A DNA stretch of 64,000 nt from Branchiostoma floridae (lineage: Eukaryota; Chordata; Leptocardii; Amphioxiformes; Branchiostomatidae). Shown here one piece after another: positions 1,534 to 64,000 of the stretch (position 1 is its first letter; each line of letters opens with the position of its first letter). The translations under genes and the position numbers were made by a program. The notes below the pieces were generated by a model. That model did not search any database. It was not told the DNA's origin and saw nothing but the letters and a program-made list of their open reading frames with translations. The DNA is taken from positions 2,457,591-2,521,590 of the forward strand of contig NC_049983.1 of the NCBI RefSeq assembly GCF_000003815.2. Reading direction: 5' to 3'.

Positions 1534-2449
1534 ATGGCCCTGAGTAAGCCTAGCAGCCCGGACCCGGTCTACACCCCAGGTACGGCTCGGGGGGCTAAAC
1601 TGGCAGCTCTGCTGGTGGACGAGGGGACTTCGCTGGTCAGGAAGATATTTGAAGATGAAATCCACAAAATGCACCCTCCAAGCCTTCAAAAGCAGCTGGG
1701 AAAGCACAAGAAACATCTCATTGGATTATATAACTTAAATCCTGGTCAGAAGAAAGCTTTGTATCCAGTCAACGGTTATATGCCAGATAGTGTACAGGGG
1801 CTAGACATATCACTCTTAGAATTCCTATTGAAAGAACTGTGTACAAACGCACCGTACTCAGGTCCGAGGAACAGACTTCGGCAATACAGGAACAAAAATT
1901 ACGGGCACATTTCAAGCACGGACCTGTCTGAAGAAGACTTTGACAGACTGTGGAAGGAACTGACGGAAATCCTTGTTGACCTCGGCGGGGACAGAGACAA
2001 GATTTCAGAAAGACTTAACACCAGTATCGACCCGGAACAGGAAGCAAAGCACTTCAACCTACTAGAGAAACTTTACAAGGATGACATGGAGGTCAAAGAC
2101 CTTCTCCTGGCTCAGGGACATAGTCTGAGAAAATGTCAAGAAGACGTTTTGGATCATGGAAGGAGCCTGCTAAAAGGACAAGAAGCTGTCTTAAATCAAG
2201 GAGAGGGCCTAAAAGAAGACATTTTACATCAAGGCGACAGCCTTAAGAGGGGGCAAGGTAATCTTTCAGCTCAAGGTGAATGTCTAAAGAAAGGTCAAGA
2301 GACTCTTTTCGCCCAAGGAGAGAGACAAATATATGGACAAGAAACAATTTTGGTGGAGTTGAGAAAGTTGCCAGAGAAACTCCGTGATGCTCATACCCCA
2401 GACCCAGGAGCGGACTCAGGACCACCTGAAAACTCAACTTCCATGACAG
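1534..2449 (+). CDS. HEPN-NACHT receptor (NLR-like), exon 1: HEPN and coiled-coil repeat
   Basis: Codes for residues 1-305 of a predicted 1168-aa NLR-type receptor. The ATG lies in an optimal Kozak context (GCCGCCATGG). Residues about 25-150 form a DZIP3-type HEPN domain with the ribonuclease-type motif RN-x4-H (R119, N120, H125). Residues 190-273 are six repeats of 14 residues, one shortened to 11, with pattern QG-x2-LKKGQE, and are probably coiled-coil. The exon ends at ACAG before GTAAGC and leaves one base of a split Gly codon. The unspliced frame would stop six codons later. Known for the family: HEPN domains bind or cut RNA, and NACHT proteins are intracellular sensors. The ligand is unknown. 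A possible upstream acceptor is at 1514-1515 for the leader exon. Confidence 0.88.
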
Positions 2450-2694
2450 GTAAGCTTTGTAACAGTTAGTACAATCTCTACATATGAAAGGAAACATGAA
2501 ATGTTTAACCCCAGATCCACATTACCACGGGTATACATGTTTTCTTGCGGAAAAAAACTGAATCTGATGGACTCTGACTTTACAATCCCTAAATCTGTTA
2601 GCATATCGTCAATATACGCTCAAGAAGTATCATAATGATAGAACTATCTGAGGTATAGTTATATGTAAAACAAATGCACGCTGTACATGTACAG

Positions 2695-8298: not shown

Positions 8299-8467
8299 TC
8301 AGGGTTGGTAGACTCGTTGGGTGGGCTATTATGATAACCCTACTGTGTTGACATGGGCGTAACATGTAATTTACATGTCATAACAGAGTTGTCTTCCCAC
8401 AGCACACACGAGTTACTTGCATTATACACATTACGAGCCGTAACTGGGACATGTAACGTCACGCATG

Positions 8468-8567
8468 TTGACTGACAGAAAATCAGACGACAGAAACGCC
8501 TCGCTAAAGCCGCGCTTTTTTATAGTGCAGCTAGCGCAGCGTTTCTGTCGTCTGACCTTCAGTCAAA
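8468..8567. repeat. Conserved promoter hairpin, copy B
   Basis: Left arm TTGACTGACAG...CAGACGACAGAAACGC and right arm GCGTTTCTGTCGTCTGACC...AGTCAAA pair over nearly 30 bp around a loop of about 40 bp. Copy A has the same structure at 495-596 with more mismatches. Confidence 0.65.
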
Positions 8568-8664
8568 ATAGCGCGAATTTGAAAAAATTCCCGCCATTTT
8601 CACCTCCCCACCAAACCGGAAGAACAACAGCATACCTGTCATACCTGGTTATTGTTCGAAACGA

Positions 8665-8672
8665 TGACGTCA
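8665..8672. promoter_or_regulatory. CRE in promoter copy B
   Basis: Perfect TGACGTCA in the same local context as copy A (GAAACGA on the left, CTCCAGGAACCCGCAA on the right). Confidence 0.45.
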
Positions 8673-8848
8673 CTCCAGGAACCCGCAAACCCTGTCATTA
8701 TTCACTATTGCTTGCGGACAGAGTCACACAACAAACGGACGCCATATTGTTCTCATCGTCTTGGGAAAAGATACTGGCTCTTTTCTCAAAAGGCGGACAA
8801 GCTTAGAAGACTCAAGGTGAGATTTTAAGATATTTGTCTGATTTCTTT

Positions 8849-38341: not shown

Positions 38342-38529
38342 TACTGATAACCAGCTTTTGTTATAGTTTTATCATTTTTGAGGCTACCAACAATTGTGTT
38401 GGACACATGATTATCTAGTTTAATTTGTATGTCATCTTCAACATTACAAAAGTGATGGAATAGATCACCACCAAAAATATTTTCTATTCACCAGAGTTTG
38501 GTATTGTCGTTTGCGGTTTGTAGTGTCAA

Positions 38530-39494
38530 AGGGCCTGGGCATTTCTTTGAGCAAACTGCATGAATATTCATGAGTTTGTAACCTTTGGGATCAGCATATT
38601 ATTGCTACTACGTCCAATGGATTGTTATCTTTTGAGGAAAAGCAAAGTTCTAAACACACCTAACTAAACATCATCATCTTCAACATCTTTTAGCTCATGT
38701 AAGTTGAGGGGATTTTGAAAGCTATGTCATGTAATAGAGGTACAGGCCAGCCATGTGTGGGCACTCACCCTGCAAACTTTTAGATCAACAGTGACCCATT
38801 TCCAACGGACGGAGTGAAAACTTTTGTTGTCTTTTGATGACAAATGGATGTAAACTATTTTTTTTCTCTTAGTCTGAAATTCAGAAACATAACTTGAATG
38901 TACAGATGTTCGTACCCAGACAATATTGGAAAACTTCCCATTGTTATAACTGACAAGCATAATTACATTGATTGATGATTGGGGTCTGTAATTAAGATTC
39001 TGTCTATTGTTCAGGCAAACAGAGGTGTCATTATCTTAATTTGTTTTTCTCGTAGTGTTTTACCCCCAGGAAGACATACACCTGAAGGGCCTACCGCAAT
39101 CACACAGGTGAGCAATTATGGACAAAGGTGGTTATCGCAGTTGTCTGTTCGCGATAGATAAGTCGATGGCTTGATTTTCCTCACGCGTTTATGAAAATAA
39201 TTTTTGACTTTGTTAAGTTGAGTACAGTATGGTAAGTTAGCTATATATCAAACAGATTATCCACAACTCCTATTATCACACAAACTCCGAGCCCCTCTTT
39301 ATGAAGTGACACATTTGTAACAAAAGGAAGAGTAAATGATTGATCTTCGTCATGCCTAATTTGAGGCCAATCCTGGCGCCACCATGGGAAGCGAGTGTCC
39401 TTCTATTGGTGTTTTCAATGTCTGTGCCGTGCCTGATATATCCGTGTTAGAACGTCTTTCTGTATATTAATATGTGTATCTAATGTATCTAACA
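38530..39494. repeat. Tandem host module, copy A, left part (split by the 12-kb insertion)
   Basis: Shares with 51879-52520, in order: TATTCATGAGTTTGTA, TTCAACATCTTT, GTGACCCATTTCCAA, a GTAACAAAAGGA stretch, TTCGTCATGCCTAATT, CACCATGGGAAGCGAGTGT and GATATATCCGTGTTAGAACG. Much diverged, so the duplication is old. No coding exon proven. Confidence 0.7.
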
Positions 39495-40670
39495 GCACTT
39501 CATATTAATTCGTCACTTTTCAGTGTTTCCACAACTGAATCACAGGTTAACAAGCGGGTTATTGGGCATTTCATTAACCCTTGACATATTTATGTAGAGT
39601 GTTATCCCCGTCATTGCTACGTGTATAACACTAAAAAAAATCTCCACGCTGTCACGGCAAACTGACGTTTTGAAAACAATAACGTAAAAGCACATCCGAG
39701 GGGAATTCTGTTCTAAGTTACATATTAATCCGTCACTTACAAATGTGAATCGATTTATCTGTGATTCTGCTTTTGATTGCTTCAACGGTTTTTTACCTAC
39801 CTTCTCTGACAACAGACAGCTGCACATGCAAAAAAGGTCACTGATATAACGCCTGAAAACTACGGACAACTGCGGATCAAAATAGGGTCCTCAGGGCCCT
39901 CGCGCGGCGACAAATTCGTTCTAGTTTTCTACTACACGTTCGCGACATCTTCCGAACCGTTAGATCACTGTTCCAGGACTACTCCAGCTAATACGGTGCG
40001 AATAATTGTTTTGATGCGCGATCATTCATACATAACATCCTGCACCCTCCCCACGTCAACTGTAAACTAATATCTTTGGTTCAAAGGTCCAAACTACGAG
40101 TTTGAAAAATTCCCAGAGGCCGGCTAACGAAAAACAAGCCGACACGCGCCGGTGATCATTGATGTAGCAAACTCATGTCTGCATGAAACCCAACACTCCC
40201 ATAAAGTTCGCTACAGGCTGTGAAGTCAGCGCGAGGCCTGCCCGATCTGACGATATGTAAATCGCTGAATGCATCATAACACCAACATAATTGAAAGCGA
40301 ATTTCTCATTGCTTGTCCAAAAATAAACCAAGTAGAATACAGCTAGCGGTCCCAAAAAAAATCGAGGATGTGGTAAAAATATACATGTTGTATTAATGAC
40401 GCTGCACTGAATTACTAGTAATTGAGGGATTTTTCAAGTGTTTTGAGATCACATGCGGTGTCTAGGTCATCATATCTGTTTCCGGGGTCACCATGCTTGC
40501 CGATACTTTTCGGCATTCTTGTGACAGATTTGTGGCATTTTGTGCGCTCATACGTAAAGGCGATTGGTATAAAATGAAGTATTTACTCTCATTACCAAAC
40601 GAAGCAACTGAGATCGTCAACGTTGACGTGACTTGGAATGCAACGAGCGGCGTAAACAATCGCTTATTTT

Positions 40671-40831
40671 AATCATGTAGTCCACGCGGAAGTGGAGACG
40701 GCGTAAGCAATCCAATTAAGAACAGGTGAAACCGAACAGGTGATAATTAGGGATGCCACGTAGACAGATAAATGTGAACAACACGCACACACGAGGCAGT
40801 TACACACGAACACGGGACAGAGACGCACGTT
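40671..40831 (+). repeat. 161-bp direct repeat R1
   Basis: Begins AATCATGTAGTCCACGCGGA and ends GACAGAGACGCACGTT. It is identical or nearly so to 50256-50416 in the same orientation, 9.6 kb apart. Weaker similarity (GCGAAAGACGCTGGAGGAAG) continues after both. Confidence 0.9.
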
Positions 40832-41040
40832 CGTCACCGAGCGAAAGACGCTGGAGGAAGGCAGCACTGTGCAGCGACCTCGACCCCCAAGCGTAATCTC
40901 ACCGCCCCGCCCGATAGAGACAGCGGAGGGGCAAGCCTTACAGCCGGTTAGGGAATGCAAGGTCTTGACCAGTATGATCAGTCGAGAGAGTCTAGCCACA
41001 AGAGCCGCGTCAGAACCTTCAGGAAGCAATGTGTCGTAGG

Positions 41041-42520
41041 TGAGCGTGGGAGGAATTGGGCGGAATGGTTGCCCTGTGATTGTAATATGAATTCATTTCC
41101 ACATGTGTAACATTGGATTTGAATTGGATGGAGTATTCTCCAGTAATGTGAGTTAGCGCTTTCCACTTTGGAAGCGGGAATTGGGCGGAATGGTTGCCCT
41201 GTGATTTTAATATGAATTCATTTCCACGTGTGTAACATTGGATTTGAATTGGATGGAGTATTCTCCAGTAATGTGAGTTAGCGCTTTCCACTTTGGAGGC
41301 TGGAATTGCATGGGCGGAATGGTTGCCCGGTGATTTGTATATGAATTCATTACCACGTGTGTAACATTGGATTTGAATTGGATGGTGTATTCTCCAGTAA
41401 TGTGAGTTATCGCTTTCCATTCTTAAAGCGGGAATTGCATGGGCGGAATGGTTGCCCGGTGATTTGTATATGAATTCATTACCACGTGTGTAACATTGGA
41501 TTTGAATTGGATGGTGTATTCTCCAGTAATGTGAGTTATCGCTTTCCATTCTTAAAGCGGGAATTGCATGGGCGGAATGGTTGCCCGGTGATTTGTATAT
41601 GAATTCATTACCACGTGTGTAACATTGGATTTGAATTGGATGGTGTATTCTCCAGTAATGTGAGTTATCGCTTTCCATTCTTAAAGCGGGAATTGCATGG
41701 GCGGAATGGTTGCCCGGTGATTTGTATATGAATGCATTACCACGTGTGTAACATTGGATTTGAATTGGATGGTGTATTCTCCAGTAATGTGAGTTATCGC
41801 TTTCCATTCTTAAAGCGGGAATTGCATGGGCGGAATGGTTGCCCAGTGATTTGTATATGAATTCATTACCAAGTGTGTAACATTGGATTTGAATTGGATG
41901 GTGTATTCTCCAGTAATGTGAGTTATCGCTTTCCATTCTTAAAGCGGGAATTGCATGGGCGGAATGGTTGCCCAGTGATTTGTATATGAATGCATTTCCA
42001 CGTGTGTACATTGGATTTGAATTTGACGGAGTATTCTGCAGTAATGTGAGTTAGCGCTTTCCATTTTGGAAGCTGAGATTGGGCGGAATGATAGCCCGGA
42101 AATATTTAAATGAATTTGGTACCATGTGTGACATTGGATGTGGATTGAACGGAACATTGTTCGGTAATTTTAGTTGGCACTTGCCATTTTGGAAGCGGGA
42201 TTCGGGTCGGATTGTGCGCCCAGAATTTTTTGGATAAATTTGGTGCCACGTGTCTAACATGGACTGGAAGGGATTGGTAGGGACATTGTGAGGTAAATTG
42301 ATTTAGATTTTGGTGCGCTTTCCATTTTGGGAGTAGGATTTTGACGTAATTGTATCGCGTGTGTTACATTTAATGTGGATTCGACTAAACATTGTTCGGT
42401 GATTGGAGTGTAAATCCTTGTGCGCCTTCCATCTTGAACCGGGATGTGGGCTTAATTGATTAATTACCCGGGAATTGTAATTGGAATCCAGTACTATATG
42501 TGTAATCAAGGAGCTTGGTG
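41041..42520. repeat. 129-bp satellite (about 8 good copies plus decayed flank)
   Basis: Unit spacing is exactly 129 bp (for example GAATTGCATG at 41303, 41432, 41561). Units from about 41300 to 41950 are nearly identical. Those after 42060 become progressively diverged. Because 129 is divisible by three, a minus-strand frame of 330 codons stays open with a 43-residue repeat; no protein family is recognised. Confidence 0.93.
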
Positions 42521-42701
42521 TAACCTAGGAAGCGACTGATTTTGGCCACGTAATTGGCCATTTTAGACTGAGTCGGTGGCATTGGCGAAAATCATTTGTA
42601 CAATGGGTAGAATTTGGCCACGTAATTTGTAATGTGGATTAATTAGCATAGAAATCGCAAGCTTGTCATCTGCTAGTAGCAAGCGGGCAATTAATTAAGT
42701 T

Positions 42702-42975
42702 TAAGGGAGATACGTGTCATGCACTCTGGCGAACAGGTCATTCTGAGCCTCAGTAAACTGGGGCGCTGACGCGCCTCCTGTCCTCCAAATGTTGTTCCTA
42801 GTTCTAAGTGATGCTTTATGCAAATGGTATGAAATATTGCCTTGGGAGATAGGGAAGTTTGGAAGTAGACCCTAGTCATACTACCCACAGTCAGTGACAT
42901 CTCCCTGCATGTCACCCGTTCAGTAGATTTGGAGGGGAGGTGCGTCAGCACCACAGGAACCACTCCGAAGGCAAG
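42702..42975. repeat. Hairpin module, copy 1
   Basis: Left arm GGCGCTGACGCGCCTCCTGT then CCTCCAAAT; right arm ATTTGGAGGGGAGGTGCGTC then AGCACCACAGG. The loop of about 140 bp contains TTGGGAGATAGGGAAGTTTG. Other copies lie near 43530, 46340 and 47115. Confidence 0.75.
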
Positions 42976-43529
42976 ATTTGGTGATGACATCAAAATTTAC
43001 AAGGGGTGGGCCTTGTGACATAACTTAGTTTTAATAAGGGCCAAAAGCCAGCTGTGGTATCTGGCGCGCCAAGTATATGGCCTTTGAATGTAGCCGTAAA
43101 ATAGGGTAGGCACTGTATAATGCCTGTAGTTCGTAGTTCTAACACTAGGGTTGCGTATTTATTGACTTGCTTGCTGGTTTTGAATTTCGTCGTTTAATAC
43201 TGTCGGTTTTGGGCGTTTACCATTAGAGCGTTTTGTTCAGGTGGGTATTTTGCCTAGTTTCTGTTTCATTTTGTGCGCAGCCTGTTGTACTGTGGAGAGC
43301 ACTGTGGTTATTTGCTGGTGTAGAAAGAGAGCATAAATCCGCAGACACAATCTGCCGTCCCTGGAAGCAGGTACAGGAAATCATAGGCTGGTGTCTTGGT
43401 AATATGGGTGTCATTTAAGGTCTCTTTGCAGCACTGCCGGCATTGAATGTGAATGCATTCAGCTAAGTAATTTGGAATTTTAGGCTGACCAATGGCATTG
43501 GCGAAAGACAGTTGTGCAAGTGACCTTTT

Positions 43530-43650
43530 ATGCCCATGGCATAAAATATTGCCTTAGGAGTGGGAGGGGTTTAGACCACATATCTCGCTGCTATCCACTA
43601 AGTAGAATTGGAGGGGAGGTGCGTCAGCACCACAGGTCTTACTCCAGAGG
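43530..43650. repeat. Hairpin module, copy 2 (right arm only)
   Basis: AATATTGCCTTAGGAGTGGG then AGAATTGGAGGGGAGGTGCG and TCAGCACCACAGG. The left arm is not present. Confidence 0.6.
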
Positions 43651-44799
43651 CAGGGTTCTTTGGGTACTTTATTTGGTTGTGCTCTGTTGCGTAACTCAGT
43701 TTTCAACAGTGCCAAAAGTCTGTGGTATTGGGTAAGCCAAGACTTTGAGTCCAGTCTCAAAACAGTGCAGGCACTTTGACGCCTGTAGTTCGTAAGTCTG
43801 AGACAAGGGCAGCCTCTTAGGGTTACGGTGCTGTGACCAGACGTGTATGTTTTACCCTGGTTTCAGTTTCTCTTCTTACGCAGTTTGTTTCTTTTGGGCG
43901 GTTGTTTTGTGTAATCAATGAAAGCAAGTCCGGAATGGAAGGACTTTGGCCACGTTACTTGTAATTTGGGGCTGGAAGGAATGTACAATCACGGAAATGA
44001 GGGGATTTCGCCACGTACGTTGTTTTAATTTGGACTGGACCGTAGGAGCCCGGGCCAGAGGAAAACAGATTAGGAATGTATGGAATTTGGCCACGTACAT
44101 GTAATTCTATCATTATTGATGATTAATAGTATCGCAACCCGTTACCAACATGTCTGAACAATAAATGTGGCATAATTGTCATGTAGCAGGATTGCTAGGA
44201 CTTCAAGTTTGGTATTTCAGTAGGAAGAAAACGGATTTTAAATGCATACCTTGGACACATTGTTACGGCACGATGCAACTTCAACATTACAAGAGATTTG
44301 CACCAGGTAATGGTCATCGATGGTATTTTGGTTTTGTAGGATAACCCGCGGGACCATGTGGGTGGCGAAGGGGACACGGGATGTTTGTGCCAGGAGCTCG
44401 AGTCTGTGACGCCAGGGCTTCCTCTGATATGAACCACCGTGTATGAACCGAGAGTCACACAGGTCCCACCTCTACAGCGGTCAATATTTTTGCGTATACA
44501 CTTTTTTGTTTAAACACATTGTGGTTTGGCGTTATGCTACTGCTGACGCTTTCTACTACGGGACGGGTCGCCTTTTATTCAATCACCGTAGTAGTGTTAA
44601 GGTAGCGCATGTGTAATACTTTTATCAAGTTTACAAGTAACCGACACCAGAGTTGTAGGACATGTTGCTCCTAATCACGATCATGGATCATGACTGGCAT
44701 TGCAGACAAGATCGATGTAATTCATCTGAGTTGCTGTCTTTGTTGTTACCATCTGAATTTCATCATACTACCCATCTGGTCAATATGCTGAAACAGATG

Positions 44800-45840
44800 C
44801 GTTGTGATCAAGATGACGAGATATATGATGTGATCAATATGATGAGACATGTGATGTGATCAATATGATGAGACAGGTGATGTGATCAATATGATGAGAC
44901 ATGTGATGTGATCAATATGATGAGACATGTCATGTGATCAATATGATGAGACAGGTGATGTGATCAATATGATGAGACATGTCATGTGATCAATATGATG
45001 AGACAGGTGATGTGATCAATATGATGAGACAGGTGATGTGATCAATATGGTGAGACAGGGGATGTGATCAATATGGTGAGGAGACAGGTGATGTGATCAA
45101 TATGGTGAGACAGGTGATGTGATCAATATGGTGAGACAGGTGATGTGATCAATATGGTGAGACAGGTGATGTGATCAATATGATGAGACATGTCATGTGA
45201 TCAATATGATGAGACAGGTGATGTGATCAATATGATGAGACAGGTGATGTGATCAATATGATGAGACAGGTGATGTGATCAATATGGTGAGACAGGTGAT
45301 GGTGAGACAGGTGATGTGATCAATATGATGAGACATGTGTTGTGATCAATATGATGAGACAGGTGATGTGAATATGATGAGACGTGATGTGAATATGATG
45401 AGACGTGATGTGATCAATATGATGAGTTATGTGTTGTGATCAATATGATGAGACATATGATGTGATTAATATGATGAGTCATGTGTTGTGATCAATATGA
45501 TGAGACAGGTGATGTGATCAATATGGTGAGACAGGTGATGGTGAGACAGGTGATGTGATCAATATGATGAGACATGTGTTGTGATCAATATGATGAGACA
45601 GGTGATGTGAATATGATGAGACATGTGATGTGAATATGATGAGACGTGATGTGATCAATATGATGAGTTATGTGTTGTGATCAATATGATGAGACATATG
45701 ATGTGATTAATATGATGAGTCATGTGTTGTGATCAATATGATGAGACATGTGATGTGATCAAGATGATGACAGATATGATGTGATTAATATGATGAGTCA
45801 TGTGTTGTGATCAAGATGATGAAACATGTGATGTTATCAT
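44800..45840. repeat. 26-bp satellite with 239-bp higher-order unit
   Basis: Unit GATGTGATCAATATGATGAG plus ACAGGT, period 26 bp, about 40 copies. A block beginning GGTGAGACAGGTGATG at 45301 recurs at 45540 with the same internal variants, giving a 239-bp higher-order repeat. Confidence 0.95.
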
Positions 45841-46339
45841 ACTATGTCAAGTATTTATAGTCCATGTTGGTGTCAACATGAGAAAGGCCAACAATGTTTC
45901 CATTCGTTCAGTGCTACTCTTGATGTCAGCTGGCATTGGCATTGCAAGAACTAATATTGCTAGTACATCAGATGTAACATGTAACAAAGGTAATGTTACA
46001 CCGAGAGAGATGAGAAAACTGACAATGGGCAAAGCTATTTGTAAACCAGGTTGTTTGGTGAATGCCCAATAAACGCTGATACCGAGGTTGTGGCCCTTGT
46101 GAGGCCTCTTCGGCTCAGAATACACGCTTAGCTGAACCGCATATATGAAGCAGTCGTACAGGTACCGTGGTAGTTATAAGTTACCTGCCGGATATTCATC
46201 GGCAAGCTCATGAGGAGTTATATGGAGGGATGGATTACCGTACAACTATTGTCAGCTGTAAGCAAAGCATAATTGAGGAAGTTGCGGCGGTATCAGCATG
46301 GAAATGTAAGTTGCTTCAAGTGTAGTACTTCCATTTGCG

Positions 46340-46640
46340 CACTAAGGTTAACTTTGGAGGAGTTAGCCATGCACCCTAGCTGGCGATCAAATCGCTCTGA
46401 GACTCAGTACCTGGGGTGATGGCACGACTTCCCTCCTCCCAATTTTGTGTAATTCTGAGCGGGTGATGATTTCTGTCACCGGGATGAAACACCGTTTGGG
46501 CAGACGGGAGTGTGGGGACAGGCACCACCCCAGCCAGTTATACTTCGTTGTCCTACATGCACAAGTATATCATCTCCCCGCTGGCCAATGTGTAGCTCTG
46601 GAGGGGAGGCACGTTAGCACCGCAGGACGTGCCGAAAGTT
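46340..46640. repeat. Hairpin module, copy 3
   Basis: GTTAGCCATGCACCCTAGCT and CAGTACCTGGGGTGATGGCA on the left; CTGGAGGGGAGGCACGTTAG then CACCGCAGG on the right. The most diverged of the full copies. Confidence 0.7.
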
Positions 46641-47114
46641 TGGTTTGTGGAAAAGTAAGTTTTGGGTGGACCGGTCACTATGGAACGACATCGTGAATCA
46701 TGAGATAAAATCATGATGAATTCAGATTTCAAAATAAGAAAGTGGTCACAAAAAAAAAAAAAAAAAACACAGGTTGCATTATTTTTAGTTTGTTTGAACC
46801 TTTATTTACCTTAGTCGTAGCGCAGTAGGGCATTGCATGAAGTGGCATCACAAGACGTGGACATCGGTAAAAACAAAATTGAAAGTTGGCATTCTTTAAT
46901 CATCGTTTTATGATTCGGCTTTAGTCTCAAGAAGAAGCAAACCTTGTGTATTGTTGAAGTTTGTATTTCAAAGGGAAGCTCATGAGTCTCTATGGCATGG
47001 GTATTTGCTGTTATTGTGTATGCAGCCAGTAGGACATACTACGATCAACCGTAGGTACTACGTTCAATCGGCACAGAAATCACAAGCTACTTCAATTGGC
47101 AAGTCTGGGTGATA

Positions 47115-47380
47115 GTTTAGAGGAGGTAGCCATGCACCCTGGCGAACAGGTCACTCTGAGCCCAAGTACCTGGGGTGTTGGCGCGCCTCCTCTCCTCCAA
47201 ATTCTGTTTCTAGTTCTAACTGGGTAATGTTTCATGTCAACGTTGTATACGTAACATCTCGCATTGGGAGACAGTAAAGATTTGGAAGTAGACCCTAGTT
47301 AGTGACAAATCTCCCAATCGACCTTTGAGTAGAATTGGAGGGGAGGCGCGTCAGCACCTCAGGACCCACTCCAGAGTCAA
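47115..47380. repeat. Hairpin module, copy 4
   Basis: TAGCCATGCACCCTGGCGAA then GGGGTGTTGGCGCGCCTCCT and CTCCTCCAAATTCT; right arm AGAATTGGAGGGGAGGCGCG then TCAGCACCTCAGG. The arms pair over about 35 bp. Confidence 0.78.
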
Positions 47381-48589
47381 TTTGTACATGGCGCAATGTA
47401 AGTTTATACAGTAACTTCAGTACCTCAAAGAACAGGGGTGGGTTGCTTTCGGCAAGAAGGTTATGTTTTAGATCGCGTTTGTACGTGGATGTATATTAGG
47501 GACACTGGCAATTACGCTGTGCAAGCAATGATAACCCTATGGGGGTGTATGTCAGCCTGATTACGATTTGTTTTAAAAGTGGTGCAGGACCCGAGTTATG
47601 AGAGGTTACAATGCTGTCTGTTTAGTAAAACAGCGGAAGGTGTATTTCGTGTCCGTCATTGAATTGTTGGAAACACTACAGTTGTATAGAAAGTGGTGCT
47701 TACGAAAAAAAAAAAGGAAAATCTTGTGACCCTGAGGTTTTCAAGAAAGTAACTTAGTCAACTGTTATTGAATCATGAATGGGCCCTCACTCATGTCGTG
47801 GTACCGTTTGTTTGCCAACTAGATTAGGTATTAGGCATAAGTTGGCGCTTTTGGACCAGGGACATTACGCCATAAGGTATCAGATTGTAGAATGCAGGAC
47901 AGGGTATGGAGGCATGCGCAGTGAAATTTATGATACCTTTACAAGTGATATTGCGTAATTCAGTCACGTGGCCTTTCCCTGGAAACTAAGCGAATGCTAT
48001 AGCAACGAAAAATAACAAAAGTTGATCATGTTCGCCTCATGGACATTAGATTGAAGCTGTTAAAATGCAGTCATTGTCCCGTAATGGGTTTCTATGAAAT
48101 GACACGCTGAATGTGTGTAAAAATCAAAACTAAAACCCAAACCAGAAGGGGGCAAGGTCCACAAGTTAGGTCAGGTAGACCAGGCTAGTGGGAGTGGGAG
48201 GACAAGGCATGTATGGATTCTGAATGTTGCTCGACAAACTCTAGGGCACCATGGAATACACCGGTGTTTGTCCATTTGTCCATCTAATTTCACCTAGTTT
48301 GGCATATAGGAAGCACGGTTCACCTGCTCATTAGTTTCGAGGACGGATTTACTGCAGTTCATGAGTGGGTTTCTCTGACGACTCTCACCTGGACTGTACA
48401 GAATAGCTTTCATGACATGTGACGTTAGGGTCAATGTGTGGGTAACATTAGATTTCAACCCAACAAGTATCTCCACGAGTGGAAAGCGTGTTTCATGTAT
48501 ATCCTCAGTGTACTTGCATGTCGTACGGCTGATTGCCATTTTATATCATTGTCTTTGCCAAAACACCACAAAGCTGAATATTTAAGGCA

Positions 48590-49006
48590 TGTGTAGAGGC
48601 TATTTTGATATATGGTTCAGACTTATGGACACTAACTAAGTCTCTGTCCAAGAAACTGGATGGTAACTACACCCATCTGCTTCGTTATGCTCTGAATGTA
48701 CCCTGGCAGAGTCGCATAGGAAACAAAAAACTGTACAATGGACTTCCCCCGATCTCTAGAACTATTCAGAAAAGAAGACTGGCTCTTGCTGGCCATGTAG
48801 CACGTCACGAGGAGATGGCTGCCAAAGTTCTCCTCTGGGAACTTGATGCAAAGAGAAAAAGGGGACGACCAAACCTGATACTTAAGAAAGTTCTGGAGGA
48901 GGAGGTTGGGTTAAAGGGCTACAACCTGCTAGCTGCCATGCTTGATAGAAACGCATGGTTAAACATTGTTAATGGCACCTCGTATGAGGAGGATGACCTG
49001 AACTGA
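48590..49006 (+). pseudogene. C-terminal fragment of a LINE reverse-transcriptase protein
   Basis: Reads IYGSDLWTLTKSLSKKLDGN, then RYALNVPWQSRI, RLALAGHVARHEE and RKRGRPNLILKK to a stop at 49004-49006, with a TGAAC-repeat tail. The YGS-x-WTLTKS-x-KKLDG / LAGH-x2-RH / RGRP series is typical of the region after the RT domain in many animal LINEs. 5'-truncated and inside the 12-kb insertion. Confidence 0.8.
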
Positions 49007-49121
49007 ACTGAACTTGCCAGAATGTCTATGCCTGTGGTATAACGTCACTGCTTGAGAAGATATGTAGCTGCCTCAGATCTGGAGTTTCTCGCGATCAGAG
49101 TCATATTAATGGTAATAGTTC

Positions 49122-49240
49122 ACCTGTATCTGTATCTATACAGCCGGTATAACCGCCCTTTGGCGTATCACGCTAGCTTCGCAGGCACGCGGTGCGACAG
49201 CAGCTGGTTATGTATTACACTAAACAGCCTGTCATACCTA
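49122..49240. repeat. Dispersed AGCCGGTAT repeat, full copy
   Basis: CAGCCGGTATAACCGCCCTT then TGGCGTATCACGCTAGCTTC and GCAGGCACGCGGTGCGACAG, the best-preserved copy in the window. Confidence 0.72.
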
Positions 49241-49249
49241 GTTTTTGCA

Positions 49250-49830
49250 CACCGAGTTTTATTAGTCATTTTGTACATCATGCAGTGTCTGGACATGGTC
49301 CTTCTGTCTGCAAATGACGTCCATTGCAGTTTTGCTTTCATTTTGGTAACACTAGCTAGCATCACCGCTGTAGTTGTTTGTGCAGAATCTGGCAGCTTGG
49401 TTCGGTACCTTTTCCAGTTTATCCTTGTCTTCCTTTGTATATGGATCCCACATTGCTGCGGCATATGATATGCAAGGTTTGGTCTTACTAGTGACTTGTA
49501 TTGCAAGTGATTTTACCTTGGCTGGACATGCCCACAAGTTGCGTTTGATTACTCCCAATGTCTGTGTAGCCTTGGTTGTTAAGCTGTTAACATGGACACC
49601 CAATTTAAGTAATGGTTGCTAATGTAACACCCGGGTATGGGTGAGTTTTAGTGGGTGCTAATCTCTGACCACAGAACTGGTAAGGGGATACAGTTGGGGT
49701 TCGTTTGTTCGTTATGTGCGGGATATAACATTTATCGAGATTGAACTGCGTAAGCCAGTTCCTTGCCACTCTTCCAGGGTGTTCAGATCTCTCTGAAGTA
49801 GTGAATCATCCTTTGTAGAGAGCTCTCTGT
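49250..49830 (-). pseudogene. CR1/L2-type LINE 3' region, frameshifted
   Basis: Minus strand: TLGVIKRNLWACPAKVKSLA, then YAAAMWDPYTKEDKDKLEKV and AARFCTNNY, then in another frame SVTKMKAKLQWTSFADRR. These are the familiar post-RT motifs of CR1/L2 elements (WDPYT, KLEKVQRRAARF). A further piece near 49770 reads LNTLEEWQ. Several frameshifts; not functional. Confidence 0.78.
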
Positions 49831-49879
49831 GTAGAGATTCCAAGCTAGCTTTGGGACAAAGTAAGCTAGCATGTTGAAT

Positions 49880-50140
49880 ATGTGGAAATAGAGAGAAGGG
49901 TTTGGGGGGAGAAAGAATAGGTTTGGGAATGTAAGGTAAGGTAAGGTAAGGATGAGGTATGGGCAGATATAAGGTTTGGGGGAAATAAAGTAAGGTTTGG
50001 GAGACTTGTAAGGTTTGGGGGAGAAAAGAAGAATGAGGGGATAATGTGAGGTAGTAATGGGGAGGTAGGGTGAGATATGGGTGTAAGGAAAGGTTGTAAT
50101 TGGGTGTAACGGAAGGAAAGGATATAGAGAGGAAGAAAGA
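49880..50140. repeat. Purine-rich GGTAAG/GGTTTGGGG tract
   Basis: G/A-rich with repeated GTAAGGTAAGG and GGTTTGGGGG blocks, probably simple-sequence expansion. Confidence 0.7.
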
Positions 50141-50255
50141 CGGAGGAGGTGCAGAAACGTCCCACTTACACCCGATATCATTCCCCATACCTAACATGTG
50201 AGACGCCTTCTACACTGTAGCGGAGGACTACATGATTGAGATAGGGACATATTTC

Positions 50256-50416
50256 AATCATGTAGTCCACGCGGAAGTGGAGACGGCGTAAGCAATCCAA
50301 TTAAGAACAGGTGAAACCGAACAGGTGATAATTAGGGATGCCACGTAGACAGATAAATGTGAACAACACGCACACACGAGGCAGTTACACACGAACACGG
50401 GACAGAGACGCACGTT
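50256..50416 (+). repeat. 161-bp direct repeat R2
   Basis: Second copy of R1 (40671-40831), same orientation. It lies inside the 461-bp duplication. Confidence 0.9.
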
Positions 50417-50467
50417 TGGAACAAGGGCGAAGAAAGCTGGAAGAATAGTACCAAAGAATCCAATAAG

Positions 50468-50510
50468 GGAAAGGGGGTGGGGGTGGGGGGTGAGAGGCGG
50501 TCAGGGGGTA
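50468..50510 (+). other. G-quadruplex candidate
   Basis: GGGAAAGGGGGTGGGGGTGG followed by GGGG...CAGGGGG gives at least four G-runs with short loops. Confidence 0.55.
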
Positions 50511-51563
50511 GAGAGAAAACACAGGTGCCTGTAAGCAGTTGCCCACCCACCCGCCCTCCTTTTACGATTACGGTTACGGAGGACATACTGGAAGATTAAG
50601 ACTCCGTCAGTGCAGAAACGTCCCACTTACACCCGATATCATTCCCCATACCTAACATGTGAGACGCCTTCTACACTGTAGCGGAGGACTACATGATTGA
50701 GATAGGGACAACGTTACAGCGAGACTCGTATCGCGGAGACGTACGCACCGACAAAGAAATTATACGTACCAAGGGGAAGCTGAAGTTAGTTGAGACAAAA
50801 TTCTTCCTTCTGTTTTTTCAAAATCGTTCAAACAAATCAAAGAGAGACAGAGGTATTTGTATGCCGAAGTTACGGTACCTATTTAGAATGGAACAATATG
50901 GAACGCTATATTTATAACAACGTTTTTCTGTTTTTACCGGCTGAGATTCATGGTGTAAATTGTGCATGGATGATGTAAAATAAACTCCAGAACGGAAAAT
51001 CCCCAAACACCAACACTCTCATTTATCAATAGTCAAAACGCAACAGTTTTCAGACAACTGACACTGTTACAAGACGACAAGACGATGTCGAACTGGTAAA
51101 TTTACGTCCGAAGTTGCGGCACCTTCCGTTATGGGTAATCAAAATGGCGGCCCCCGATGCGTTCGGATGGCCGCTGAAAACCGTAATTAAGTCGCGCTGA
51201 ACATCGATTAAGGACAAAGACAGGTAAGTCGGTTGCCAACAATCGGCACTTTATTTATTCTTCTTTCCATCAATGTGTTGATGGATTAGTACGGTGACAA
51301 TGTAAAGGAGAAAATCTTAACAATGTGGCGACTGCCCGCCCTCCCATGTCCGACTCTAGATGATAAAATCGGGCCGGTTACTTCACGACGTCGTCGTTGC
51401 AACACATAAACTTAGTTACCTCAAAATTGCACATTTTAATATTGTATATCGACTTGGTACTTAGATGCAATCACAGGTCCTTACATATGTGGACTAAAAT
51501 TTTATTGGCAGGGGAGTGTTGAAAAGTGACGAATTAATATGATGACGAATTAATATGAAGTGC

Positions 51564-51878
51564 CGTTATCTTCAATTTATCTTTGTGTGTGTTTGTGTTT
51601 ATGTGTGTGGTGCATGTGTGTGCGTGTATGCGTGTGTGTGTGTGTGTAAAAAGCATACTATGAGAAGCCATGGATGAACCTTTTGATATTTCGTAGAAGT
51701 TTAGAGCTACACTTACATGAGCATATCATGTAGGTTGTTACTTTGAAAGGCGTACATAGAATGTTACCTTCAACGTTAAAACGTTAAGGAAAAAGTTTAC
51801 CAAAATGTTTCTTATGCACTGGGCAGAAAAATGTTTGCATTAAATTCCTTGCAGGATGTAGGGCCACAGGGCCCTTTC
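51564..51878. repeat. Tandem host module, copy A, right part
   Basis: Continues copy A after the 12-kb insertion. The TTTATCTTTGTGTG run, GTTACCTTCAACGTTA, TTATGCACTG and AGAAAAATGTT match 52530-52905 in order. Contains a (GT)n tract at 51585-51650. Confidence 0.72.
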
Positions 51879-52618
51879 CTTACGCCAACTTAACCACTAT
51901 TCATGAGTTTGTACCCTTTCGTGGCACATGGATTGAGTCTAACATAATTTTTTTTTAGTCTTTTAATACACCTGGCAGGACAAAGGCATTTTCAACATCT
52001 TTAAGTTCAACTCATGTAACAAAGTTGACGGGCGTTTCAATGATATGGTACGAATCTAATGGTACTTGTCGGCAAAATTGTAACATTCACCCACGTAACA
52101 TTTTGGATTAGCTGTTTCATGATCAGTGACCCATTTCCAATAAATTGGGACATACTACCCGTAATCAACAAGTCCAATTGATGAGAAAATGTTTTTTTTT
52201 CTACGCAAAGTAGGAAAGGCTTTTGCTCACTCCCTAATGTACTAATGTTGTTCCCCTAAGAAAGGAACCGACATGAAATAAAACTCCGGGCCCCTTCTCA
52301 TGCAGCCTTGGGGCAATGCTACCCTGTAACAAAAGGACCCTTAGACAAGTGCCTTCTTTCATCACGTAAAATTCTTCGCCATGCCTAATTACGGCCGATC
52401 GCCACCATGGGAAGCGAGTGTTCTTTTATCGGTGTTTTCAATGCCAGTCTGTGCTGTGACTGATATATCCGTGTTAGAACGTCTTTCTATATATCTAAAT
52501 ATTTACGTATCTAATGTATTTATCTGCAGTTTATCTTTGTGTGAGTGTATTTGTGTGCGTTTGTCTGTGTCTGTCTGTGTGTTTGTATTTATGTGTATGG
52601 TGCATGTGTATGTGTGTT

Positions 52619-52691
<73 letters not shown>

Positions 52692-52905
52692 GTGCGTGCG
52701 TGAACAGCATAACATGAGAATCCTTGGATGGACCCAGACGCTATTTGGTAGGTGCTTAGAGTTATACGTACATGGGCCTATAATGTAGGTGACACTTTGA
52801 CAGGCATACATAGCATGTTACCTTCAACGTTACAACGGTAAGGAAAAAGAAAGCCATTTTTTCTATGCACTGACAGAAAAATGTTATTTCATTGCAGGAT
52901 TGACA
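51879..52905. repeat. Tandem host module, copy B (uninterrupted)
   Basis: The complete module, running through the position where copy A is split (about 52507-52530) with no insertion. Contains a (GT)n run at 52570-52705 that creates spurious frames. Confidence 0.72.
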
Positions 52906-53165
52906 CATTTCCAATGGATTGACAGTAACAATCGTTTAGTCTTTTGATAAAAAGAAGCAAACAAAGGCGTTTTCAACATCTTTCACTATCTGCACATGTT
53001 GCAAAGTTAACAGTGTTTCAAAGATATGGTATTTAATTGTACAAATACTTGTCGGTCAAATTGTAACATTCTACCCAAACATCATTTTTGATCAGCTGTT
53101 TCATGATCAGTGACCATTTCCAATGAATCCGTACATACTGCCTAGGATCTGAGCCGACCGAGTAA
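52906..53165. repeat. Tandem host module, copy C (partial)
   Basis: Repeats part of B: TTTTCAACATCTTT, ACTTGTCGG-x-AAATTGTAACATTC and TTTCATGATCAGTGACC appear in the same order. Confidence 0.65.
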
Positions 53166-56100
53166 CAATACAGGTGATAAACCTTAGGTTGGCTGGCTGT
53201 AATGAATCTTTGTTGAGACATGACAAAAGTACAGTGACTTTCGTATGGTCGACATGTATAACAAACTACTTACAGTACAACTAAACACACATATATGGAT
53301 ATCTATAGGTATGAATAAATCAACATATAGGGTCTAGCTTTTCATTTACACTATTGGATCTATGGTATATAACGTTACATTCATGGATATATTTGCCTTT
53401 TTGTACACATTGTGGATTATCGCCTCCCAGAATGTATTTGAGTTTATCTATGGAACAGAGAGGAGCAAATTCTTTAGAGCAAGCGGAAAGTAATGTGAAT
53501 TGTCTAACCAAATCTATCAGTCACAGGGTGATGACCCCCAGTCACAGGGGTTAATGACCCCCAGGTGGCAGAGCTGCCCTGTAGAGTTGTGCTATGTATA
53601 ATGGTGGTGAAATTTGACAGAAACAAGTGAATAAAGCCAAAAGATGGTCTCCTAAGTACATGGAGACATTGTTCCCTGCTCTTAAACTCGTACATCCCCT
53701 TGTGTGACAAGAGTACAAACACAGATAGATAGATAGATAGATGGTTTATTGCGCAACAATATTCACCTTGATTTGATCATAGAGTAATAACAGACTGTAC
53801 ATATTCCTTAAGGTTCCACCAGTAATTACACAAATGTACTACATGTAGTTGTCTTTCCTGACTGTTCCACTGCCCATGTACTGCATGTGAAGTTACCCAT
53901 GTAATTCGTCCAGACTCACCAGTATATGTTATCCCTCCATGTGCAATATTACTCGACTGTACAAACTCTAGTCTTAGTGTTTGACAAATGTACTGTTGTT
54001 GTTGTTGTTGTTTTTAATTAAAAAAAAATATTCACCTTGTCTTGAACCCCTGCGGTAATAAGGGGACCCCCTCCCCTTTTAGTTTAAGCTTACTCCTGGA
54101 ATATCAAAATTAAGTCCTCTTGACACTGTCTCTGGTCCGCAGTCTGATAGGAGGGAGGATTAAAAACCAAGAACGTTGGTCCAACATGGGGTAAATCAAG
54201 AATAAACGACAGCTAACTGAAGCCTATCTCTTGCTTAGGTTAATGATTGTAAAAAGTCCATCAACTGAACAAAAATGCCCTAACCCATCCCTATGTAAAA
54301 TTGTGAGTATCAACTCAGAACATGCCCGAGGAATATCATAAATGACCCCAAAGAACCCACCCACGCGCATCCGCCGCCATTTTTATGTTGAACATAGCAT
54401 CGTATGGCAGTCAAAATCGGATGCAAATCGGCCGACTCCGTCACAAAATCACGCTACATGTTAATCATGAAAACATATGGGACCTCAAACTTTAAAATAA
54501 CGCGGTCTTTATGGGCAGCTGGGATTTGATGCTGTGTTGTCCCAATTTTGGCGGCCGCGGTTGCCTTGGCTTGGTGATCGTCTCAGGCACTTAATGTTTA
54601 CGTCAACTGGGAAAATTTTCGGTACCGAGGAAAATCGTGTCAATACTATCAGATAAGTGTTTTTCTAACATATCGTTGTACACAGAGTTTGGAGGATTAT
54701 ACCCAGCACAGATTACTAGAATCATGTTATGATGAGTCATTCTGTCAGTGACTGAACACTGTTCTGGTAAGCAGTCTCTAATCTCAGATACCACCGGGGA
54801 TGTTCCATCCCATATGAACACCCAGTGTAGTAGCTAGCAGCAAATAATGGTAGGACAAGCTCCTTCTACAATCGTTCTAGACTTTTAGTTATTTGAGATG
54901 GATACACACCTAAAAGGACAGGTGATGATGTTGAATACATCTGTTGCTTGTGATATCATGTTTTATCGCCTCGATTGTTGTTTTGTAAGGTTTATGATGT
55001 CAGAATTTGAAAATGTAGGGTTTTTCCCCCATGCTCTGTGCTAATCTGATTGGTTAATTTCATGTGCATCGCTCTTTCTGATCGGTCAGGTGTTGAAAGT
55101 TTTAACACCTGACTAGCCGGAATTCTATGTGTTATGGCATCATAACCAATGCAAAATGGGGTATTTTGATTGGTTCACGTCGCCTGGCTGAATGATAATA
55201 CCATGCAATCTACACGGGTGTAATAATCAACTGTCAATGACTACTCCGTCACCCGAGAATACAAAAAAAAAATCTTTGTACATTACTAGAGAGATATGGC
55301 CTAGCGTACAGGTGTTATATCTATAATCTTGACGACAACAGCGTTCGAACTATTCTATCATCAAGCAAATTGATCGTCACCTAAGTACCTTGTATTAATT
55401 CATCACCAGGCATACAAATTGACATATGTTGAGCAACCCAAAGTAGACCGTACAGCAGTGGCCTCTTGCGATATTACTCCAAAGTGCAGCGTCTTACCTT
55501 CCTTTGGGTGATTTAATACAGTTGCGCGGTGGCATTTGTCACGGACCGTGTGCTCGCCAATTACTAAGGCAAACCCCATTTCAAGTTTTAACTGTCTAGC
55601 AAAAAGTTACTTAGCTGCATATATCTACTAGAAATCAGATCACGGCGTCATTACGCTTTTGGACACTTCGTTTCCTATCGTTAACTTATGGATGTGCTGA
55701 GGAATACAACGAAGACCACACAGTTGCGCCCTCCAGCGATATGTTTGTAAAGTGCAACGATAGTACGTTTTGCATGCACTTTGCATATAGATGGCTAGGG
55801 GATGCTGCTACATGGTCTGAAAAATTATTGAAAGAAAATAAGGCAAGGATGTCCTTTTCTTATGTACTCTGTGACTAGGGGGTAACCTCCAGCGACAAAG
55901 TCTTGTGAACGGTTTAGCGTTGAGTGTTCGCATCTCTATCTCTATGTTCCGTTTGCCACAATCGTATGTGGTTTGGCATGTCGTCTGTAATCCGTTGCGA
56001 AATGACGTACGTTCTTTTTTTCGCGGTAGCTGTTTTTATTATGGTTGTGATAATTTCAGTTTTCACCCCTACGCCGTCCGGTTTAGTGGTTCAGGTCTTC

Positions 56101-58041: not shown

Positions 58042-58280
58042 ATAACATCGACTATCATAATTCCAGCAAGTGCCATTATGGGATAATACCGCCACTTCAA
58101 AAAAACGTTAGTATAGAGGTCTTCCCAAGATTGTCTTCAACACCGAATGTTAAATATCTTCAATGTAATACAATTCAGATATTTGAGTGTTGAAGACAAT
58201 CTTGAGAAGGCCTCTGTAACAACGTTTTTTGAGGTGGCGGTATAATGGCACCTGGTGGAATTATGCGAATGTATGTTAAT
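58042..58280. mobile_element. Foldback element, copy 1
   Basis: The arms pair over about 80 bp (TACCGCCACTTCAAAAAAAC ... GAGGTCTTCCCAAGATTGTC with their complements) around a short AT core. The outer ends differ: ATAACATCGACTATCATAAT on the left, AATTATGCGAATGTATGTTA on the right. Copy 2 at 61624-61854 has these ends swapped, so it is in inverse orientation. Confidence 0.85.
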
Positions 58281-61623: not shown

Positions 61624-61854
61624 TAACATACATTCGCAAAATTCCACCAGGTGCCATTATATATACCGCCACCTCCAAAAACGTTGTTATAGAGGTCTTC
61701 TTAAGATTGTATTCAACACGTAAATATTTAAATTGTATTAAATTTATTGTATTTAACATTTTGTGTTCAAGACAATCTTGGAAAGACCTCTATACCATCA
61801 TTTTTTGAGGACGCGGTATTATGGCACCTGGTGGAATTATGATAGTCGATGTTA
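61624..61854. mobile_element. Foldback element, copy 2 (inverse of copy 1)
   Basis: TAACATACATTCGC then AAAATTCCACCAGGTGCCAT on the left; ATGGCACCTGGTGGAATTAT then GATAGTCGATGTTA on the right. Inner arms GAGGTCTTCTTAAGATTGTA / AGACAATCTTGGAAAGACCT. Confidence 0.85.
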
Positions 61855-63481: not shown

Positions 63482-64000
63482 TATGTCAAAGCACTTACAC
63501 TACGAATTGAACGTTTACTCCCTTTCCTAATACACGAAGAAAAAACAGGATTTGTTAAACAGAGATATATAGGGACAAACATCAGGCGTATTTATGACAC
63601 AATAGATTATTACGATAAAAAGAAGGAAGCGGGATTGTTGATGTTTCTGGACTTCAAAAAAGCTTATGATAGTATCGAACACTCCTTCATACTAAAAGTA
63701 CTAGAAACTGTAAACTTTGGACACAATATGATCAAATGGGTTAAATTGCTATACACTGATATAACAAGCTGTGTGCTTAATAATGGCTATATATCTCCAT
63801 GGTTTAGTGTTCATAGAGTTGTAAGGCAGGGGGATCCACTGTCATCTAGCTTGTTTATGATCTGTATTGAAATGTTAGCTTCAGCAGTTAGAGCAGATAT
63901 AAACATAAAAGGTTTACAAGTGTATGGAAGAATACAAAAACTTTCAATGTACGCAGACGACATGACATCACTACTACTAGATATACCATCTGCACTGAAC
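63482..64000 (+). pseudogene. L1-type LINE reverse transcriptase, partial, runs off the window
   Basis: An open frame of 173 codons from just after a stop at 63479 to the window end. It reads YVKALTLRIERLLPFLIHEE and TGFVKQRYIGTNIRRIYD, then LMFLDFKKAYDSIEH (RT motif A, catalytic Asp), VRQGDPLSSSLF (motif B) and LSMYADDMT (motif C, YADD). Frame is intact over RT fingers and palm. The 5' part is missing or lies in the gap, so it is probably a truncated copy. Confidence 0.9.

Follow-up and report, generated by a model that had tools for sequence, protein, structure and literature searches.

The window analysed is a 64,000-nucleotide stretch of the Branchiostoma floridae genome (contig NC_049983.1, positions 2,457,591 to 2,521,590). 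Within it lies a 12-kb block bounded by inverted repeats, for which an earlier sequence-only reading had proposed a giant non-autonomous transposon that carries or breeds satellite DNA. The features of the block and its surroundings, in window coordinates, are as follows:

39492..40664, +: left arm of the outer TIR DNA transposon, starting ACAGCACTTCATATTAATTCGTCACTTTTCA...; preceded by TA (39490-39491), with 3 other genomic copies
40665..50710, +: nested insert of 10,046 bp with split direct repeats, very probably a non-autonomous YR-type retrotransposon; exactly this stretch is absent from the C3 copy
40665..40831, +: split direct repeat A1, 5' element end; a single mismatch to A2 over 167 nt
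41057..42065, +: tandem array of the leader, 129-bp unit present 7.9 times, decayed at its right edge
42496..43107, +: hairpin-module region 1, with 93% identity to L046 sequence lying downstream of gag
43504..43741, +: second hairpin module, partial; 87% identity to L046 over 43504-43722
44780..45839, +: 26-bp satellite inside the inner element, without a relative among the loci compared
46351..46642, +: third hairpin module; 46351-46491 has relatives among the loci compared
47114..47380, +: fourth hairpin module
48578..49003, +: LINE-like C-terminal frame, secondary debris (by eye; no Pfam match)
49171..49618, -: two overlapping LINE-like frames, secondary debris (by eye; one weak, unrelated Pfam match, E 0.077)
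50149..50249, +: split direct repeat B1, adjoining A2; 0 differences from B2 in 101 nt
50225..50268, no strand: B1|A2 junction, presumed circle-junction recombination core; 19-bp inverted arms, 18/19 paired
50250..50416, +: split direct repeat A2, directly after B1; 166/167 identical to A1
50417..50609, +: spacer x between A2 and B2, common to relatives
50610..50710, +: split direct repeat B2, 3' element end; 101/101 identical to B1
50711..51566, +: right arm of the outer TIR transposon; TA follows at 51567-51568, and C3 joins this arm directly to 40664
52373..52905, +: paralog of the host module without interruption, the empty site of the outer element by flank alignment

The perfect 21-bp inverted repeat that the sequence-only reading placed at both ends of the block is present (39495-39515 and 51543-51563) and, with a mismatch, extends to 26 nt at 96% identity (39490-39515/51543-51568). 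When the window was simulated 40 times with a first-order Markov model, a 21-bp inverted repeat with arms more than 1 kb apart never arose; the real window holds six maximal inverted repeats of this class, two of them being the outer TIR in two registers, so that inverted repeats per se are not rare here. The two ends recur together in three further genomic copies (C2, C3 and C4) of 1.06-1.84 kb, whose alignment to the window is confined to the outer arms. TA flanks both ends in 4/4 copies, the TIRs start with ACAGC/ACGGC, and a 16-bp tandem duplication (51527-51558 in the window) is visible in the right TIR of all four; the right ends of the C2 and C4 copies show 3 mismatches. The claim that the split host module exists uninterrupted in tandem just downstream, with matching flanks, also held: 39344-39506 corresponds to 52373-52537 (82%) and 51584-51857 to 52639-52900 (78%). 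Alignment of the flanks with 52375-52905 gave a gapless junction once 12,077 bp—the element plus one TA—were excised; the four best joins (39488|51566 to 39491|51569) all remove 12,077 bp, with scores of 95, 94, 94 and 94, the TA join scoring 94 rather than the top 95. The TA target duplication expected of a Tc1/mariner-type element is therefore found in the four copies and in the gapless, same-size join. Consistent with the reported lack of a transposase, the longest outer-arm frame is at most 116 aa, and the three longest yielded no transposase in Pfam, only one chance match (E 0.094). Pfam likewise returned no transposase for the four frames scanned, two per locus, in L050 and L051, which carry one outer end each; one scanned frame of L051 is an RVT_1-like piece. 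The outer element is a low-copy, ~2-kb non-autonomous DNA transposon with a TA duplication, and a literature search of published amphioxus MITE names left no candidate standing.

The C3 copy of this transposon runs continuously across the position equivalent to 40664|50711, so that 40665-50710 must have entered a ~2-kb TIR element separately and at a later time. The empty site in C3 reads ...CAATCGCT|ACGTTACAG..., placing the insertion point in the window at T|A, and the insert has no target duplication—the behavior of YR retrotransposons with split direct repeats (Ngaro/PAT). From the nesting and the structure of the insert, we conclude that the 12-kb block is very probably an older TIR DNA transposon into which a gene-less YR-type retrotransposon with split direct repeats was later inserted. 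What stands of the giant non-autonomous transposon is thus a mobile TIR element in a host repeat, and not a single 12-kb unit.

The insert is organized as A1...B1A2...B2, an order that recurs at five further loci with different flanks (by eye, 40-50 nt per side). The paired 161-bp repeats of the sequence-only reading correspond to A1 and A2 and measure 167 nt; the second split pair, B1/B2, and the separateness of 40665-50710 had been overlooked. Across six copies, A1 and A2 differ at 0, 0, 0, 0, 1 and 7 of 139 sites, and B1 and B2 at 0, 0, 0, 0, 0 and 30 of 101 sites (111 columns for the last), the decayed member being C8:11.1M, whose own B1 and B2 differ. Between the five non-decayed copies there are 0-22 differences in A (0 for one close pair) and 1-9 in B. 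The split repeats are thus in register and evolve in concert within copies: in 5/6 copies A1 matches A2 and B1 matches B2 against this between-copy divergence, as if recopied every cycle. At the B1|A2 junction, the inverted arms enclose a 6-bp spacer, GGGACA in the window, and an identical hexamer forms the 3' terminus (50705-50710). This spacer varies among copies; the two hexamers of C8:11.1M differ by one base, and L056 did not match the junction expression. Solo A-x-B units make up 9 of the 30 loci surveyed, or 7 after merging two segmentally duplicated pairs. The A-x-B pairs at C8:5.37M and C5:25.46M were considered as LTRs and discarded, since their similarity extends into both flanks, as in tandem segmental duplications.

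These ends are linked to RT and YR genes at other loci. At L045 (C6:14.75 Mb), RT/RNase H is followed by an ALOG-domain YR and then by B1A2 and B2; this locus lacks A1 and has an N gap at 4185-4284. Its YR matches the Pfam ALOG profile at E 8.6e-25 and Phage_integrase at 4.9e-6, the latter 0.2 bit under the cut-off in one Pfam scan and above it in another, while the RT and RNase H matches lie under the Pfam cut-offs (RVT_1, E 0.0034; RT_RNaseH, 1.3e-4). The decayed L056 retains a gag piece, RT, YR, B1A2 and B2 in that order. L046 reads A1, array, gag and hairpin up to an N gap at C1:22702794, and L047 reads A1, array, gag/YR and B1, being deleted and ending in an N gap; a complete coding element was thus seen at no single locus. 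In the window element itself, neither gag nor RT nor YR was matched at E 1e-3, and so it is at most a non-autonomous derivative. Compared with the ends of the window element, those of the coding relative show only 83% identity in A (over 98 nt) and 90% in B; the relative therefore need not be the actual helper. A methyltransferase-like domain, the lack of which separates Ngaro from PAT/DIRS, was not recovered from the relative's RT frame by Pfam at E<=0.1, nor from its C-terminal 210 aa at E<=10; by eye, we take this C-terminal part to resemble the methylase-like region of DIRS. No Rep/helicase was found in the scanned frames of loci with these ends.

The cargo described by the sequence-only reading—two satellites, a repeated hairpin module and the paired repeats—is present, but the 129-bp array, the hairpin modules and the paired repeats belong to the inner element and not to the TIR transposon. 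Homologous 125/126-bp arrays sit between A1 and gag in L046 and L047, which identifies the 129-bp 'satellite' as retrotransposon leader DNA; the main satellite of the block travels as part of a retrotransposon. Its monomer occurs at seven genomic places, five of which have element ends nearby on the same strand and two of which do not. Tandem arrays with a period of 22 or more were detected in 12 of the 16 family stretches run (the exceptions being L012, L027, L040 and L048), with unit sizes of 22/45, 35, 60, ~88 and 126-129 bp across the family and copy numbers that differ among sibling insertions. The notion of an element that breeds satellite DNA accordingly survives in part for the inner element, given the arrays in the leader/5' part of its relatives, and fails for the TIR transposon. 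Six Pfam families matched the frame of the 129-bp array; we set these aside as sums over repeated units, as no single stretch passes, although Arm-DNA-bind_1 exceeds its whole-protein cut-off (25.8 against 22 bits). A total of 6,022 of the 10,046 bp of the window element (60%), including the 26-bp satellite, has no relative among the loci compared. The LINE debris noted earlier is judged by eye only, Pfam having given no supporting match.

Single-sequence folding of the hairpin module gave a z of -2.9, with 0/200 shuffles as low, and a long stem is common to nine aligned modules (three of the four in the window, one of the two in L046 and five short copies; partial ones were left out). Covariation was no better than in shuffles, 146/500 of which reach the score, so we claim no selected RNA structure for the module. 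The Rfam scan of the window yielded no family at gathering scores; within 38500-53500, the three matches at E<=1 lay below cut-off and were judged chance. No tRNA was found.

These observations very probably reflect a history in which the outer DNA transposon entered one unit of the host tandem repeat, and a gene-less YR-type retrotransposon later entered that transposon without target duplication. For the latter, we infer that an RNA spanning A1 to B2 is reverse transcribed by proteins from coding relatives and that the ends are joined into a circle with the internal B1A2 copy as template. The circle junction, with its 19-bp inverted arms around 6 bp, would be the site at which an ALOG-type tyrosine recombinase recombines with the target, such that the left side keeps the old target bases and the right end is marked by the element's own hexamer. 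Repeated copying of the leader may expand and contract its tandem arrays, through slippage or strand transfer, and would be the origin of the 129-bp 'satellite'.

Other readings of the block account for part of this evidence. One giant non-autonomous TIR transposon with captured satellites would fit the perfect TIR 12 kb apart, the TA duplication and the satellites inside; it is made very improbable by the short, arms-only composition of the other three copies, by the continuity of C3 exactly where the 10-kb stretch sits and by the composite having been found once—among the best candidates scored, a B1-A2-B2 query matched at 100% only in the window, the next at 84%, and no second 12-kb composite was seen. 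We give equally little credence to the inner element being a tandem pair of rolling-circle Helentron/HINE-like elements, with A1..B1 beside A2..B2. The insertion point is T|A and not TT, the 3' inverted arm stops 6 nt short of the element's terminus as against 38-60 plus a stem loop in the elements described in PMC4067079, and both the concerted evolution of A1/A2 and B1/B2 within copies and the RT and YR genes flanked by these ends, with no Rep/helicase in the frames scanned, speak against it, notwithstanding the short inverted repeats near both ends, the central tandem repeats as in oyster and mite HINEs, and the solo A-x-B units.

A Crypton-like YR DNA element integrated twice in tandem, with no RNA step, would share the YR-type core site and the missing target duplication, yet RT/RNase H lies upstream of YR in two linked loci and the composite stands at five further sites, 4/5 with internally identical repeats; we regard this as the least probable account. 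Assignment to DIRS1-like elements proper, which have inverted terminal repeats and an internal complementary region, was rejected, as the repeats are direct and inversion is limited to about 20 nt at the tips. An LTR retrotransposon/TRIM, in which one direct repeat stands at both termini and the target is duplicated, was rejected too: here the 5' terminus is formed by A and the 3' terminus by B, and there is no duplication. A later insertion of a gene-less YR-type retrotransposon into an older TIR transposon remains our preferred reading. For annotators, a TIR pair enclosing satellites need not represent one giant transposon.

At a broader level, there is perhaps an even chance that this YR family acts as a leader/5' satellite nursery, with subfamily-specific units, copy-number change among siblings, gene-less spread and a coupling-like spacer whose arms are kept. 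On this reading, the 6-bp circle-junction spacer would behave like a Tn916-type coupling sequence and preserve a trace of past recombination, with the 19-bp arms maintained. The circle model is testable by sequence alone or by a simple recombination assay, since the family includes sibling copies and coding relatives, has a paralogous empty site and provides a candidate core for recombination, with a 6-bp spacer between 19-bp arms.

According to PMC4157794, YR retrotransposons are relatively rare, and their biology is poorly understood. Ngaro elements are defined by a 5' A1, then B1 and A2, and a 3' B2, with A1=A2 and B1=B2 (PMC9210276); this arrangement is found in the window (A 166/167, B 101/101) and at five further loci, together with the absence of a target-site duplication at the C3 empty site. 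The RT/RNase H and YR encoded by such elements are present in L045 and L056 and absent from the window element. As in Ngaro, versus the nematode form of PAT, the internal repeats lie downstream of YR in L045, L056 and L047 (B1 only, then an N gap, in the last; PMC4157794). The differences from Ngaro are the window copy without gag, RT and YR, the ALOG domain of the relative's YR and the 5' leader arrays. We found no literature report of a non-autonomous or satellite-bearing Ngaro, including in the relevant passages of PMC9210276, PMC6681497 and PMC12477816, which is no proof of absence. The ALOG-type DIRS1-like retroposons of Iyer and Aravind 2012 (PMC3537659), reported from Branchiostoma floridae, likewise place ALOG before the recombinase domain and RT-RNase H upstream of the ALOG frame; that paper gives them a methylase domain that is inactive and, for those of Ectocarpus, terminal direct repeats of 159 bp, and the passages describing them mention no split repeats, non-autonomous forms or leader satellites. 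The solo A-x-B units recall SIRE of Trypanosoma cruzi, the A2-B2 part of VIPER (PMC6681497), in another host and another element group. Ogre/Tat LTR retrotransposons likewise hold tandem arrays in an untranslated region, with turnover of both the unit and its copy number, but these are plant LTR elements with hypervariable 3' UTR repeats, whereas here YR elements carry them in the 5' leader (PMC7004042). Oyster Helentron-borne satellites are similarly satellite-like arrays dispersed inside non-autonomous mobile elements, of another transposition class (PMC7492417). In the present family, the birth of satellites is tied to the leader of a retrotransposon class distinct from the LTR elements and Helentrons of the papers cited here.

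The perfect 21-bp inverted repeat that a sequence-only reading had taken to bound a single satellite-filled 12-kb transposon is exact and extends to 26 nt with one mismatch; chance 21-bp inverted pairs more than 1 kb apart arose in 0 of 40 simulations, and the real window holds four others besides this one. The proposed downstream repeat of the host module was borne out (identity 78-82%), and removal of 12,077 bp leaves a gapless junction with that copy, the TA join scoring 94 and the best same-size join 95. Using the first 301 bp of the outer element as query against the genome (513,431,437 bases, 431 contigs), we recovered three more copies at 97-98% on contigs C2, C3, and C4 (1064, 1839, and 1068 bp, both TAs counted). 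TA lies on either side of each copy, and all four copies, the window's included, show a right TIR with a 16-bp duplication. The TIR pattern (≤3 mismatches) occurred at 21 places, against 7 for a reversed control, with both ends at four loci. In the outer arms in the window, the longest frame is ≤116 aa and Pfam returned nothing credible for the three longest; at two further loci with a single end, the four frames scanned held no transposase. The outer element is a low-copy non-autonomous transposon that duplicates TA.

Features of the window
334-877 and 8301-8848, direct repeat (550 bp, 85%) flanking the NLR-like gene on both sides
1489-2466 (+), HEPN_DZIP3 frame
2652-5282 (+), NACHT-domain frame; this and the preceding frame make up an NLR-like gene close to where the window begins
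17116-18189, imperfect AGAGT pentanucleotide array (1.07 kb, 214 units by Tandem Repeats Finder)
39492-40664 and 50711-51566, outer element
40665-50710, inner element
41057-42065, 129-bp array
44780-45839, 26-bp satellite
58043-58278 and 61624-61854, MITE-like pair of ~235-bp repeats; the pair matches in direct and inverted orientation, so each copy is itself palindromic
63482-64000 (+), reverse-transcriptase open frame (RVT_1, E 6e-20) running past the window end
The window itself lies at G000:C5:2457591-2521590. An AMP-binding match in the window was weak and under cut-off.

The C3 copy is continuous across 40664|50711, and the stretch absent from it, 40665-50710, starts exactly with A1 and ends exactly with B2; inside, B1 directly adjoins A2 with 0 bases between. 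The insertion made no target duplication, CAATCGCT|ACGTTACAG being intact on both sides. The inner element is a split-direct-repeat (SDR) element. Its paired repeats are identical at all but 1 of 268 sites, whereas the outer element matches its C3 sister at 92-96% over long pieces; judged from this divergence, the insertion is probably young, and it may be polymorphic.

Genome-wide, the B1-A2-x-B2 block (x, the A2-B2 spacer) gave at least 53 matches, with 40 of 71 candidates scored. The order A1-interior-B1A2-x-B2 occurs at five loci of 2.5-3.1 kb, whose flanks differ by eye; a second subfamily occupies two loci (C19 and C13, 1.9-2.0 kb), and the C14 locus (L012) is a further member with a damaged 5' end. 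Nine of 30 loci examined carry A-x-B without B ahead of A, also at E 0.1 (L017, L018, L020, L021, L022, L024, L025, L028, L029); A or B is split in two of them, and merging two segmentally duplicated pairs leaves seven. Solo A-x-B units lie within tandem segmental duplications at L041 (C8:5.37M) and L042 (C5:25.46M), the latter covering an open frame of 1053 aa, LRR-receptor-like by eye.

In the window element and in each of four young copies, B1 and B2 are identical over 101 sites, while the differences between A1 and A2 (139 sites) number 1, 0, 0, 0, and 0. Between copies there are 0-22 (A) and 1-9 (B) differences, the zero for A being confined to the comparison of the C5 and C1 copies. In the alignment, private changes of a copy are present in both its repeats; a sixth, decayed copy has 7 (A) and 30 (B) internal differences. 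Template-directed regeneration would predict such concerted repeats, which a passive tandem would not show.

The junction survey covered twelve elements, with the B1|A2 side of C8:11.1M taken from a separate locus reading. The decayed L056 did not match the search expression; in the other eleven, B1|A2 reads ATA-N6-TAT flanked by ~19-bp inverted arms, paired at 15-18 of 19 positions in eight listed elements. The hexamer equals that at the B2 end in 10 of 11 (one base off in C8:11.1M) and varies between subfamilies. L057 (G000:C8:1911800-1918799), a further subfamily with a 60-bp array, a hairpin region, and split B repeats, has ATA-GGAAAC-TAT, with arms wholly different from those of other subfamilies (16/19 paired, counted by eye) and the geometry unchanged. 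This layout is that of a tyrosine-recombinase (YR) core site, and its 6-bp spacer may resemble the coupling sequences of Tn916.

A Phage_integrase search placed a recombinase frame directly upstream of one B1A2-B2 block. In L045, a frame of 750 aa matches RT and RNase H, both under cut-off. A second frame, of 458 aa, carries an ALOG domain (E 8.6e-25) and a recombinase domain (4.9e-6), the ALOG part matching plant LSH3 (8p5q, E 1.4e-10). The decayed L056 retains the same order, gag piece-RT-YR-B1A2-B2. L046 runs A1, 126-bp array, gag frame with a CCHC knuckle (by eye), 79-bp array, hairpin region, and N gap; L047 runs A1, array, gag fused to a YR C-terminus, B1, and N gap. None of these loci is a complete coding element, and the description is confined to the order of parts. 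Two distant ALOG-type YR loci (L053 and L054, on C16 and C17) have open 531-aa frames; downstream of the YR lies a junction of palindromic repeats.

Genomic matches to the hairpin module number 24, counting the window's own and those of known relatives; at 80-81%, ten are full-length, including L057, and three partial ones lie elsewhere. The module's position after gag in L046, and that of a part just ahead of RT in L045, indicate that it is native to the element.

The 129-bp monomer has 21 matches at seven places, five with same-strand SDR ends (window, C1, C9, C11:30 kb, C14; A at most ~1.2 kb upstream) and two, C140 and C11:17.35M, without. Tandem Repeats Finder detected arrays of period ≥22 in 12 of sixteen family stretches, the exceptions being L012, L027, L040, and L048.

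Arrays in family stretches (period; copies; units)
45 bp; four copies; 5.0-12.0
22 bp (half of 45 bp); fifth copy; 4.0
35 bp; two copies; 11.6 and 7.6
125-129 bp; three copies; 7.9, 6.2, and 2.7
88 bp; L056; 4.2
60 bp; L057; 20.5

Arrays start ~390-1050 bp into the element in the ten stretches with readable A1; A1 was not found for the L056 array or in the 7 kb read at L057. Array period and array length thus change from one family member to another within the leader or 5' part. Among the fetched loci, no relative was found of the 26-bp satellite or of most of 43742-49891.

Ngaro-like elements (PMC2632668) and ALOG-type DIRS1-like elements (PMC3537659) are reported in amphioxus. Placement of the family with Ngaro or PAT/DIRS hangs on a methylase-like domain; Pfam detected none in the RT frame (E≤0.1) or in its C-terminal 210 aa (E≤10), where by eye we suspect one. 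For the array turnover, the closest parallel found in the literature lies in Ogre elements, in their 3' UTR (PMC7004042). The solo A-x-B units are reminiscent of SIRE, a T. cruzi element that corresponds to the A2-B2 portion of VIPER (PMC6681497).
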